From: Thermus sp. 2.9
GTDB taxonomy: Bacteria; Deinococcota; Deinococci; Deinococcales; Thermaceae
NCBI RefSeq assembly: GCF_000794385.1
Contig: NZ_JTJB01000034.1
Location: 1-64,000 of the forward strand
Direction: 5' to 3'
Length of the DNA: 64,000 nucleotides
Below the pieces are notes generated by a model. That model was not told the DNA's origin and did not search any database. It saw only the letters and a list, made by a program, of their open reading frames with translations. Position numbers and translations under genes: made by a program. Positions 22,670-25,400 of this stretch are shown piece by piece; positions within the stretch are counted from its first letter, which is position 1; each line of letters begins with the position of its first letter.

Positions 22670-22962
22670 ACCCCACCCGCCTCTCCCAGTCCTTGGCCCT
22701 TTTGGGCGTGGCCCTTTACGTCTACTTTCTCCTCCTGCGCCCGAACCAGGAGGGGATGGCCCTGGCCGTGGGCCTCTTCGTGGGCACCATGGGGGTGGCG
22801 TACGGGGAAAAGCCCTTCCCCGTGCCCTTCTTCCTGGGGCTTTACGGGGTGCTTTTCCTCCTCCAGCTCCTCTTTGGCCACCCTTGGCCTTTCCTCCTGG
22901 GGGGGCTTTTGGGGGTGGGGCTTCCTTACCTCCTTTACCGCTTGCGGAAGCCCGCTAGGTAA
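22666..22962 (+). CDS. Hypothetical membrane protein (four helices)
   Basis: 98 residues with hydrophobic segments at about 8-24, 30-44, 52-68 and 72-90. Starts at an ATG overlapping the previous stop. It converges on another small membrane gene with a 28-nt overlap. Not recognised. Confidence 0.6.
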   Translation: MNPTRLSQSLALLGVALYVYFLLLRPNQEGMALAVGLFVGTMGVAYGEKPFPVPFFLGLYGVLFLLQLLFGHPWPFLLGGLLGVGLPYLLYRLRKPAR

Positions 22963-23273
22963 AGGAGGCTTCCCAGGAGCATCCCCTCCCCCAAGGTGGG
23001 GAGGTAGAGGAGGAACTCCCGCACATCCAGCCGCAGGTAGAGGAGGAGGGGCCAGGGGGTGAGGGCCCAGGCCAGGTCCGGCCTCCCGTAGCCCGCCGCC
23101 AGGAAGAGCCCCGCCCCAAGGCCCCGGAGGTAGGCAAGCCAGCCCGAGCCCAGCTCGTTTTGGTAGACGAAGAAGAGCAGGTTTAGCCAGATTCCCAAAA
23201 CCCAAAGGGGCAGGCGCCTTTCCAGGCGGAAGGCCAGGGCCAGGAGCACGGCGAAGGCCAAAGCCTCAAGCAC
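22935..23273 (-). CDS. Hypothetical membrane protein downstream of the kinase
   Basis: 112 residues from a GTG that overlaps the last codons of the kinase gene (start at 23273, kinase stop at 23266), so translation is likely coupled. Four hydrophobic segments ([68 protein letters not shown]). Not recognised. Confidence 0.6.
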   Translation of the reverse strand: MLEALAFAVLLALAFRLERRLPLWVLGIWLNLLFFVYQNELGSGWLAYLRGLGAGLFLAAGYGRPDLAWALTPWPLLLYLRLDVREFLLYLPTLGEGMLLGSLLYLAGFRKR

Positions 23274-24696
23274 GGCCCACCTCCGCTTGGCCCCGGGCCT
23301 CGAGGTAGGCCACCAGCACCTCAAAGGCCTTTTCCACCGCCTCGTCCAGGTCCTCCCCGGGGATGGTGGGGACGCCCTCCTCCTGGGCCCAGCGGAGGAG
23401 GTGGTCTTGGATGAGGCGGATCTCGGCGAAGTGGGCCAAGTACTTGCCCTTGGGCCGAGCGTGGCCCGTTTCCTTGTCCCGCAGGTGGAAGCGGTCTTGG
23501 TGGAGCTTTTCGTCCTGCAAATAGACCAGCATGGGCACGGTGAGGACCCGGTCCTGGTAGGGATGTTCCAGGTAGCGTGGCACCACGTGCACCCCTTCCA
23601 AGACGATGGAGGTGCCCTCCAAGGCGCTCCTTTCCTGGATGGCCCTAAGGCCCACCGCCACCCGGGCCACCTGGTCCAGGAAGCCCCTCAGGACCCTGGC
23701 CTCGTGGCTTTCCTGGGAAAGCTCGGGCATGAGGGCCTTCCAGGCCTCAAAGGTGGAAAGGTGCAGGGTGGGGAGGAGGTCTTTGGACAAGGAGGCGCGG
23801 AAGACCTCCCGCACGGCGTCCGAGGGGACGATGTGGGTGATGCCCAGGCGGTAGGCCAAGGCCGAGGCCAGGACGCTTTTGCCCACCCCCGTCACCCCCC
23901 CAATAAGGATGTGCACCGGGCGGGCGCTCCGGCGTAGGTGCCTTAGGAGGAGGTAACGCCGGGCCACCTCCTCCCCCGCTTCCTTGAGCAAGGCTTGGTA
24001 GACCCGTTCCCGGAGCTCCGGGCGCCGGATGACCTGGATGCCCGCCCGCCTAAGCGTTCCTTCAATCTCCCGGGCCAGGCGGTAGGCTTGCTCGGGGGAA
24101 AGGCCGATGCCCATGAGGGACTGGGCCAGGATGCCCTTGGAAAAGGGCATGCGGGGTTCACCGCCCTCTTCCTCTACAAAAAGCTCCCCGGCGAAGGCCC
24201 GCCGCTCCAGGTAGCGCCGTTTGGCCGCCTGGCCCTTGATCCGGCCCACCTCCTGCGCCACCACCTCCTCCAGGCGGCGGGCGGAGATCTGCTTAATGCC
24301 CTCATCCCGCAGGCGTTCTTCCACCCTTTTGGCAAGCTCGTGGGCTTCCTTGAGGGAAAGCCCCGCCTCCTCCAGGCTTCGCGCCAGAAGCCCCTTAGAG
24401 AAGGGGCGGCGCCGATGGCCCGCCAGGACCAGGATCTCCTCAAAGGGGAGGGTCTTGCGGGCCAGGGTCTCCGCCGCCTCCTGGCCCAGGACCTTGGCCA
24501 CTTCCTCCAAAAACACCTGGCGGAGGCGACGGGGGGTCACCTCTTTATAGCCTTCCGCCTTGAGCCGCTCCTCCACCGTGTGGGCCAGGGCCTGGGCGGC
24601 CTCGAGGGGCACTCCCAAGGGCAGGAGCGCCTCCACCAATAGCCCCTTGGAGAAGGGCCACCGCCCCCGCTTGAGGCGCACGAAGACCTCGCTCAT
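23266..24696 (-). CDS. 2-phosphoglycerate kinase-like protein with three ATP-cone-like repeats
   Basis: 476 residues. The C-terminal 220 residues form a P-loop kinase: Walker A LIGGVTGVGKSVLASALA (about residue 262), then HIVPSDAVREVFRASLSKDLLPTLHLSTFEAW and EGTSIVLEGVHVVPRYL, as in archaeal 2-phosphoglycerate kinase. The N-terminal 250 residues hold three tandem repeats, each beginning PFSKGLL or PFSKGIL with a following VEERL/EGTL helix and xxRRL helix (from about residues 14, 97 and 183), which look like ATP-cone nucleotide-sensing domains. Archaeal relatives have fewer such repeats as I recall. TATGAT is 8 nt before the ATG. Confidence 0.8.
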   Translation of the reverse strand: MSEVFVRLKRGRWPFSKGLLVEALLPLGVPLEAAQALAHTVEERLKAEGYKEVTPRRLRQVFLEEVAKVLGQEAAETLARKTLPFEEILVLAGHRRRPFSKGLLARSLEEAGLSLKEAHELAKRVEERLRDEGIKQISARRLEEVVAQEVGRIKGQAAKRRYLERRAFAGELFVEEEGGEPRMPFSKGILAQSLMGIGLSPEQAYRLAREIEGTLRRAGIQVIRRPELRERVYQALLKEAGEEVARRYLLLRHLRRSARPVHILIGGVTGVGKSVLASALAYRLGITHIVPSDAVREVFRASLSKDLLPTLHLSTFEAWKALMPELSQESHEARVLRGFLDQVARVAVGLRAIQERSALEGTSIVLEGVHVVPRYLEHPYQDRVLTVPMLVYLQDEKLHQDRFHLRDKETGHARPKGKYLAHFAEIRLIQDHLLRWAQEEGVPTIPGEDLDEAVEKAFEVLVAYLEARGQAEVGRA

Positions 24697-24861: not shown

Positions 24862-24938
24862 GGGCGCGTAGCTCAGGTGGCCAGAGCACTACCTTGACAC
24901 GGTAGGGGTCGGTGGTTCAAGTCCACTCGCGCCCACCA
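24862..24938 (+). tRNA. tRNA-Val (anticodon GAC)
   Basis: Acceptor GGGCGCG/CGCGCCC, discriminator A, encoded CCA. Anticodon arm CTACC-TTGACAC-GGTAG gives GAC. T arm TGG-TTCAAGT-CCA. 77 nt, 7 nt after tRNA-Cys, so the pair is one transcript. Confidence 0.97.
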
Positions 24939-24942
24939 GGCC

Positions 24943-24971
24943 AAACCCCTGGGGCAACCCGGGGGTTTTCC
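24943..24971 (+). terminator. Terminator after tRNA-Val
   Basis: AAACCCCTGGG and CCCGGGGGTTTT pair over about 11 bp (one G-T pair) around a GCAA tetraloop-type turn, ending in TTTT. Confidence 0.8.
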
Positions 24972-24998
24972 CTTGGGCGCTTGCGGAGGGCTTCGGGG

Positions 24999-25004
24999 TA
25001 TACT
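24999..25004 (+). promoter_or_regulatory. -10 (TATACT) of the next gene
   Basis: TATACT ends 6 nt before the ATG at 25011, the same arrangement as acuB. Confidence 0.55.
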
Positions 25005-25010
25005 CGGGCC

Positions 25011-25400
25011 ATGAGCGCCGCTCACGAACGCGAGCTATACCAGGCTTGGGTGGAGCTCCTTTCCTGGATGCGGGAGTACGCCGAGGAAAAGGGGGTTCGC
25101 TTTGAAAAGGAGGCGGACTTTCCCGATTTCATCTACCGCATGGAAAGGCCCTATGACCTTCCTACCACCATCATGACGGCCTCCCTCTCCGACGCCTTGG
25201 GGGAGCCCTTCCTCTTGGCCGACGTTTCCCCCCGGCACGCCAAGCTCAAGCGCATCGGCCTTCGCCTGCCCCGGGCCCACATCCACCTCCACGCCCACTA
25301 CGAGCCCGGCAAGGGCCTGGTGACGGGGAAGATCCCCCTCACCAAGGAGCGCTTCTTCGCCCTGGCGGACCGGGCCCGGGAAGCCCTGGCCCTGGCCTAG
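25011..25400 (+). CDS. Conserved-type hypothetical protein, 129 residues
   Basis: A soluble alpha/beta-looking protein without recognised motifs. Notable stretches are the acidic start HERELYQAWVELLSWMREYAEEKG, FPDFIYRMERPYDLPTTIMTASLSDALGEP and a His-rich PRAHIHLHAHYEPGKG that could bind metal or nucleic acid. Start set by TATACT 6 nt upstream. It converges on the thioesterase with a 4-nt overlap. Confidence 0.65.
   Translation: MSAAHERELYQAWVELLSWMREYAEEKGVRFEKEADFPDFIYRMERPYDLPTTIMTASLSDALGEPFLLADVSPRHAKLKRIGLRLPRAHIHLHAHYEPGKGLVTGKIPLTKERFFALADRAREALALA

Follow-up and report, generated by a model that had tools for sequence, protein, structure and literature searches.

A 476-residue protein, encoded on the reverse strand of a 64,000-nucleotide stretch of Thermus sp. 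2.9 (contig NZ_JTJB01000034.1, positions 1 to 64,000, hereafter the window), carries three tandem ATP-cone domains ahead of a single P-loop kinase domain of the 2-phosphoglycerate kinase (2-PGK) type. This unusual domain architecture, found on a kinase which bears a curated name, is real and extends across the phylum Deinococcota. The explanation which we favour, and regard as reasonably probable, is that the protein acts as an ATP-dependent 2-PGK whose three cones form a regulatory or assembly module, with 2,3-bisphosphoglycerate (2,3-BPG) as an end point outside the route to cyclic 2,3-diphosphoglycerate (cDPG). The gene, an open reading frame (ORF) of the minus strand, and its parts are arranged as follows:

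23266..24696 (-): whole gene, triple-cone 2-PGK of 476 aa, NF008994/PRK12337, COG2074 type; from the ORF, its ATG start and the family profile
24445..24690 (-): cone 1, residues 3-84, PFSKG at 14-18; ATP-cone fold from Pfam, repeat alignment and model; own clade across Deinococcota
24187..24444 (-): cone 2, residues 85-170, PFSKG at 98-102; ATP-cone fold from Pfam, repeat alignment, model and cone tree
23929..24186 (-): cone 3, residues 171-256, PFSKG at 184-188; ATP-cone fold from Pfam, fold match with Z up to 12.1 and cone tree
23287..23928 (-): kinase domain, residues 257-470, P-loop fold resembling nucleoside monophosphate (NMP) kinases and gluconokinase; from model, fold search and residue conservation
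23875..23901 (-): Walker A motif GGVTGVGKS, residues 266-274; from the sequence

The initial annotation had described three PFSKG(L/I)L-headed repeats in front of one P-loop kinase, and these were recovered in the ORF at exactly 23266-24696: the heads occupy residues 14-20, 98-104 and 184-190, and the P-loop is single, with an intact Walker A motif. The ATP-cone family PF03477 matched the protein in three stretches, each passing alone (E 1.5e-21, 77.2 bits against a gathering cut-off of 25.8), and the Pfam scan placed no P-loop family at its cut-off in the kinase part. Pairwise alignment of the repeats, with 1000 shuffles each, gave z-scores of 20.8, 17.2 and 14.5 at identities of 33/72, 32/71 and 31/83, a likeness from repeat to repeat which is far above chance.

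Over its whole length, the protein belongs by sequence to an existing curated family, NF008994 (PRK12337, '2-phosphoglycerate kinase', an NCBIfam equivalog of 492 positions). The match scored 683.7 bits (cut-off 603; model positions 6-477, residues 3-471), and the protein shows no structural difference from the family. The earlier assignment to 2-PGK-type kinases agrees with this match above the curated cut-off, the name being curated and the activity predicted. The archaeal single-cone model NF003259 was also above its cut-off (373.6 against 343 bits). Archaeal 2-PGK (PRK04220/NF003259, Methanothermus fervidus type) shares the kinase domain, the adjacent cone and the conserved kinase residues with the Thermus protein, but it has one cone instead of three, several archaeal members have a Walker A motif with Thr or Ser at the Lys position, and the methanogen kinase feeds cDPG synthetase (cDPGS). 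The substituted motifs (GVGTS or GVGSS) were seen at loci L142, L145, L146, L148, L149, L157 and L159; since such variants also occur in some archaeal genomes bearing cDPGS, the enzymes are presumably active. The ATP-cone of archaeal 2-PGK was reportedly noted by Aravind, Wolf and Koonin in 2000. No description of the triple-cone architecture was found in the open-access literature searched, in which 2-PGK and the ATP-cone came together in the reference list of one paper (Lehmacher and Hensel 1994; Aravind, Wolf and Koonin 2000).

The predicted fold is consistent with this domain assignment. AlphaFold2 modelled the whole protein with a mean pLDDT of 94.6 and a pTM of 0.75 (63-row alignment), and the cones alone with 92.0 and 0.67 (40 rows); in the models of every repeat, a beta hairpin or a pair of strands leads into helices. 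AlphaFold predictions for 2PGK are reported as inaccurate in a review (PMC11058618); here, the confidence is high, but the models are predictions nonetheless. The rows listed by the whole-model fold search all fell on the kinase domain, and the cones were therefore folded alone. In Foldseek, the kinase domain matched gluconate and NMP kinases, and VIA-align listed these along with further small-molecule kinases (3t61 at Z 16.0, the next rows at 13-15); a sequence search for a solved relative of this domain returned chance-level matches only. The leading Foldseek matches of the cones model were ATP-cones (5im3, E 1.6e-4, with 5olk, 9a6n, 7p37 and 9fxk), and VIA-align gave Z values of 12.1, 12.0, 11.9 and 11.0 for 9a6n, 5im3, 5olk and 7p37 over model residues 169/170-258, at a root-mean-square deviation of 2.0-3.1. 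The best cone fold matches are thus the ATP-cones of NrdA, NrdR, NrdB and NrdD; they test cone 3, and cones 1 and 2 rest on homology to cone 3 and on Pfam. The top match, 5im3, is the structure of Pseudomonas aeruginosa NrdA in complex with dATP, whose catalytic domain is unrelated, and which we take to carry tandem cones N-terminal to that domain, as the Thermus kinase does. The three ATP-cone-like repeats proposed in the initial annotation are accordingly borne out by the three Pfam stretches and the shuffle z-scores, and the models point to the ATP-cone fold.

NF008994 matched 61 of 61 close relatives and 85 of 86 Deinococcota genomes of at least 90% completeness, the sole genome without a match being G082, with 9% contamination; the Deinobacterium chartae control genome was likewise above the cut-off. 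All 83 uncut copies of the 86-genome search are triple-cone, their matches running from model position 9 or earlier to 472 or later. The partial matches are those of G036, at a contig edge (L028), and of G077, which is very probably cut as well, its 313-aa open frame being as long as that of L067, a locus which starts at a contig end. Our own cone hidden Markov model (HMM) detected three cones in 35 of the 38 kinase ORFs of the first-fetched Deinococcota loci (L001-L038), the exceptions being L028 and two cone-less paralogues. These kinase-only paralogues belong to two Deinococcota genomes (L030:2582-3496 and L031:2374-3144, both on the minus strand). A plasmid search returned one distant match, limited to the kinase part, in Deinococcus sp. 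QL22, and no matches were obtained in a search of viral contigs.

Beyond the phylum, single cones were found. In a scan of named genome contigs, covering the best 80 of 324 relatives, the same HMM counted 58 three-cone and 22 one-cone proteins; the latter comprise L067 (Trueperaceae, cut at the contig end), L105 (a Thermococci archaeon) and 20 bacteria, 18 of which are titled as Actinobacterial (Thermoleophilia, Gaiellales, Actinomycetes, Actinobacteria, Actinomycetota). The other two bacteria are L068, which falls inside the Actinobacterial rows of the tree described below, and L075, which is not in the tree. The class of G112 (L096, Thermoleophilia bacterium) was represented by 199 genomes, 90 of them with strong NF008994 matches (E < 1e-50) which all start at model position 140 or later, i.e. 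without cones 1 and 2; 12 more weak local matches (E 2.8e-8 to 7e-4) were left uncounted. Among 150 archaeal genomes, 25 passed the NF003259 cut-off, and one cone was present in 20/20 archaeal loci fetched from positive genomes. In a 2005 comparison of Thermus and Deinococcus, COG2074 is placed among 14 COGs common to archaea or eukaryotes and no other bacteria (PMC1274311), a range which is extended by the Actinobacteriota kinases found here.

The tree of cone 3 and kinase placed the 41 Deinococcota rows on one side of a branch with support 98/95; archaea form a weakly supported group (90/92), Actinobacteriota lie between, and L117 stands apart on a long branch. In a tree of single cone units, which has few columns (80) and SH-aLRT support only, cones 1 and 2 each make up one group across the sampled families (97 and 95), and the single cones make up one group (83), with cone 3 adjoining. 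Cone 3 thus appears as the counterpart of the single cone in the archaeal and actinobacterial relatives, and the simplest history is that of a single cone in the ancestor and one tripling of it, older than the divergence of the sampled Deinococcota families, with cone 3 as the ancestral unit, common to archaea and Actinobacteriota, and cones 1 and 2 as duplicates retained in all families. Among the 41 Deinococcota, the kinase has a mean pairwise identity of 0.501 and cone 3 one of 0.493, with lower values for cone 2 (0.400) and cone 1 (0.367).

In Methanothermus fervidus, 2PGK makes 2,3-BPG and cDPGS cyclises it, and cDPG is described as exclusive to hyperthermophilic methanogens (PMC10690619). 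A cDPGS profile, built from a ten-row alignment (A4) and matching 6/6 positive controls, found no homologue in 111 Deinococcota genomes, the window's own genome included. It matched 94 of the 199 genomes of the G112 class, including all 90 with the kinase, and it was strong in 19 of the 150 archaeal genomes, where the kinase is present in all 19; one weak archaeal match, G452, was left uncounted. Six of the 25 archaeal genomes whose single-cone kinase exceeds the NF003259 cut-off are without cDPGS, and because of these the kinase is not bound to cDPG synthesis. A strict rule by which three cones would imply no cDPGS was rejected, as these six one-cone genomes are also without it. The initial annotation had called the job of the kinase in a Thermus unclear; this can be sharpened to the extent that the cDPG route was not found in the 111 genomes.

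The partner gene has a different distribution in the single-cone loci. Of the 21 single-cone loci of the named-contig scan, with L067 set aside, 20 have a gene for a cDPGS homologue immediately upstream of that for the kinase; these 20 belong to Actinobacteriota and one archaeon (L096:1970-3379 and 19 further loci), and the exception, L117, begins at a contig edge. The L096 homologue was matched to the solved M. fervidus enzyme 8ork with E 1.3e-118 over 454 residues. Nine residues (E45, K46, K145, R146, T150, D208, E305, T353 and E404), to which the binding of substrate, Mg or ADP is ascribed (PMC10690619), were found by hand on invariant columns of A4, with P335 not placed. A bacterial cDPG operon in Actinobacteriota, outside methanogens, is probable on these grounds. 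No such operon is described in the open-access literature searched, in which a query for cyclic diphosphoglycerate synthetase in Actinobacteria led only to a paper on ammonia-oxidising archaea (PMC7554672).

The reaction proposed for the Thermus protein is the conversion of 2-phosphoglycerate and ATP into 2,3-BPG and ADP, which would be carried out by the C-terminal NMP-kinase-like P-loop domain. Substrate residues were compared with a reference set of 22 single-cone kinases: 12 Actinobacterial (one of which, L117, starts at the contig edge, so that the upstream gene is not visible) and 6 archaeal, these 18 coming from sampled groups with cDPGS, and 4 archaeal from genomes without it. Of the positions conserved in at least 90% of this set, the polar residues D293, R296, R300, S314, R356, E360, E367, H399, R406, R414, Y419 and R427 are identical in 41/41 Deinococcota and H370 is kept in 38/41, whereas 12 paralogous kinases of the archaeal set, cone-less or deviant, differ at R283, L307, E360, R414 and Y419. 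Because the residues of the synthetase-linked kinases are almost all kept in Deinococcota, 2-phosphoglycerate would be the likeliest substrate and free 2,3-BPG the product, residue conservation being support and not proof. The same retention makes it unlikely that the kinase has switched to another phosphorylated hydroxy compound, such as an inositol phosphate, phosphomevalonate or a sugar-acid phosphate. A switch of this kind would accord with the existence of relatives named for mevalonate 3-phosphate or proposed for inositol monophosphate (rice LPA1, discussed below), and with Deinococcota having neither a detected cDPGS to use 2,3-BPG nor a conserved operon partner; against it, the model of mevalonate-3-phosphate 5-kinase (PRK12339/NF008996), which has a related P-loop kinase domain and covers only the kinase part here, scored 87.7 bits, below its cut-off of 250. 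Supply of 2,3-BPG to prime the cofactor-dependent phosphoglycerate mutase (dPGM) is a very improbable purpose of the kinase. In the window's own genome, the mutase is the cofactor-independent apgM, which scored 383.1 bits (cut-off 320), and the best dPGM match, at 53.3 bits, is under the cut-off of 81.7; across the 111 genomes, the apgM cut-off was passed in 59 and that of dPGM in only 7, with the kinase near universal. Two genomes of genus g4, G061 and G065, whose mutase content is unlike that of most of the genus, would suit priming, having a strong dPGM (407 and 402 bits; G061:C5:46722-47456, L193, and G065:C110:26302-27036, L194), no apgM match and a retained triple-cone kinase. The presence of the kinase does not, therefore, follow mutase type across genomes, and such priming cannot be its general role.

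As for the cones, a paper on Streptomyces coelicolor NrdR describes how K50 and R51 of the hairpin bind phosphates, how adenine is recognised by E56 together with main-chain atoms of the loop that follows, and how mutation of V48, K50, E56 or K62 impairs binding (PMC9110341). The NrdR of the window's own genome keeps this contact pattern (VVKRDGRKEPFNPDK). Contact positions in the cones were read from alignment columns anchored on the shared P-F; the register at K50/R51 is uncertain, as hairpin length varies, and a [KR][KR]xG motif test was used there. At the K62 position, cone 3 has I, V or L in 41/41 Deinococcota, and the same holds for 22/22 single-cone relatives; Lys occurs in 3/41 in cone 2, and no Lys is among the residues listed for cone 1 (40/41 rows). 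The E56 position is occupied by W, Y, R, V, F, M or H in cone 1 and by L, V, F, M, A, T or W in cone 3, with Glu in 6/41 in cone 2 and 0/41 in cones 1 and 3, and the hairpin motif was found in 0/41, 2/41 and 1/41 in cones 1, 2 and 3. The Pfam matches of cones 2 and 3 start at profile positions 8-10, past the KRDG hairpin, and that of the own NrdR at position 2; hhalign of the cones against this NrdR gave a probability of 3.3%, and a profile of the cones retrieved no ATP-cone chains from the PDB sequences, its matches being at chance level. The conserved feature of the cones is instead P-F/Y-S-K/R-G, whose Ser and Gly are present in 41/41 in cone 3 and 22/22 in single cones. Because the single-cone relatives are also without the contact residues, their absence is common to the whole sampled 2-PGK family and not a Thermus loss.

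These results weaken the proposal of the initial annotation that the three cones are ATP/dATP sensors which adjust the kinase to energy charge, in the manner of ribonucleotide reductase and NrdR. We consider this rather improbable; nucleotide binding of another kind would still be compatible. In favour of the proposal are the ATP-cone fold, confirmed in cone 3 and extended to cones 1 and 2 by homology, and the conserved PFS(K/R)G segment, which coincides with the position of the adenine-recognising loop. Fold and Pfam membership (PF03477) are thus shared with the cones of ribonucleotide reductase and NrdR, but counterparts of NrdR K50, R51, E56 and K62 are not conserved in any cone or in the single-cone relatives, and the late Pfam starts, the low hhalign probability and the PDB search without ATP-cone chains point the same way. 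It is also unlikely that the cones are inert spacers, or modules for thermostability or oligomerisation without a ligand. The lost contacts and the lower conservation of cones 1 and 2 relative to cone 3 would fit such a role, but the retention of P-F-S-(K/R)-G in cone 3 and the single cones, together with the presence of three cones in every uncut copy of the phylum, suggests selection on the site.

The favoured explanation, an ATP-dependent 2-PGK with a regulatory or assembly module, would assign that most likely role to all three cones, with P-F-S-(K/R)-G located at the site of adenine recognition in known ATP-cones, a loop and the first turn of a helix. Because the side chains known to contact phosphate and adenine are missing, the cones would probably bind another ligand, hold a nucleotide in a new way, or serve only oligomerisation; and because no cDPGS was found in the phylum, the end point would be 2,3-BPG itself or the product of a further enzyme. 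Several points weigh against this explanation. NF008994 is a curated name and not a tested function, and no enzyme assay of any triple-cone member was found in the open-access literature searched. Rice LPA1, a plant homologue, is proposed to act on inositol monophosphate (PMC4844318), and because of this substrate shifts are possible in the wider family. The six archaeal genomes with a single-cone kinase and no cDPGS count here as well. Finally, the drop in identity from cone 3 to cone 2 to cone 1, and the degradation of PFSKG which the f3 (Trueperaceae-type) rows show in cones 1 and 2, also fit slow decay.

One further ORF of the window adjoins the kinase gene:

22935..23324 (-): short hydrophobic ORF overlapping the kinase 3' end, with a same-strand homologue downstream of the kinase in 22 fetched loci

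A Pfam scan of this ORF gave no match; it is possibly co-transcribed with the kinase, and a link to kinase function is putative. Kinase neighbours vary by family, including, with names assigned by eye, an S41-type peptidase, an ABC transporter, an aldo/keto reductase and a small membrane ORF. The most widespread are thrC, with homologues in 31 loci, and hom, with homologues in 28, of which three are distant matches in Actinobacterial loci; both genes are convergent to the kinase. Clustering of neighbouring ORFs in the fetched loci revealed no conserved operon partner, and operon logic was rejected as a guide: with partners changing by family and hom/thrC convergent, no function can be read from it. 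The initial annotation had pointed to a nearby glycerate kinase making 2-phosphoglycerate. Such a homologue does lie near the kinase, but because it was found in 6 fetched loci only, all of them Thermus (L034, L036, L052, L053, L082 and L098), it is weak evidence of a joint pathway; many loci in this count have too little flank to show a homologue, and in L033 and L035, of the same genus, none was present in the approximately 5 kb of upstream sequence covered. Elsewhere in the window, an ORF at 24912-25400 (+), beside two tRNA genes, encodes an Nqo15-type NADH-quinone oxidoreductase subunit (PF11497, 202 bits), whose translation probably begins at a Met further downstream than the listed GTG. 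In three archaeal genomes, similar-looking proteins with ELRGHIIDSLI near the start are encoded beside 2-PGK (L184:8408-9673, L188:4680-5990 and L189:4589-5860).

A bolder reading can be offered only tentatively, namely that Deinococcota as a whole possess a conserved 2,3-BPG synthase without a cDPG pathway, governed by a three-cone sensor whose ligand chemistry is unlike that of characterised ATP-cones, and that in parallel cDPG is produced through the 2-PGK-cDPGS operon of Actinobacteriota. If this is true, an unrecognised use of 2,3-BPG, as a signal, an allosteric effector or a precursor, would exist across a bacterial phylum, and cDPG, an extremolyte described as exclusive to hyperthermophilic methanogens, would be predicted in Actinobacteriota known here mostly from metagenome assemblies. 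Should the cones bind something other than ATP/dATP, the ATP-cone, long seen as a nucleotide switch, would prove to be a fold that senses ligands more generally. A testable question is thereby raised as to what Deinococcota do with 2,3-BPG: a near-universal kinase whose product has no known consumer implies that a core step, metabolic or regulatory, is still to be assigned, for which Thermus thermophilus is a tractable organism.

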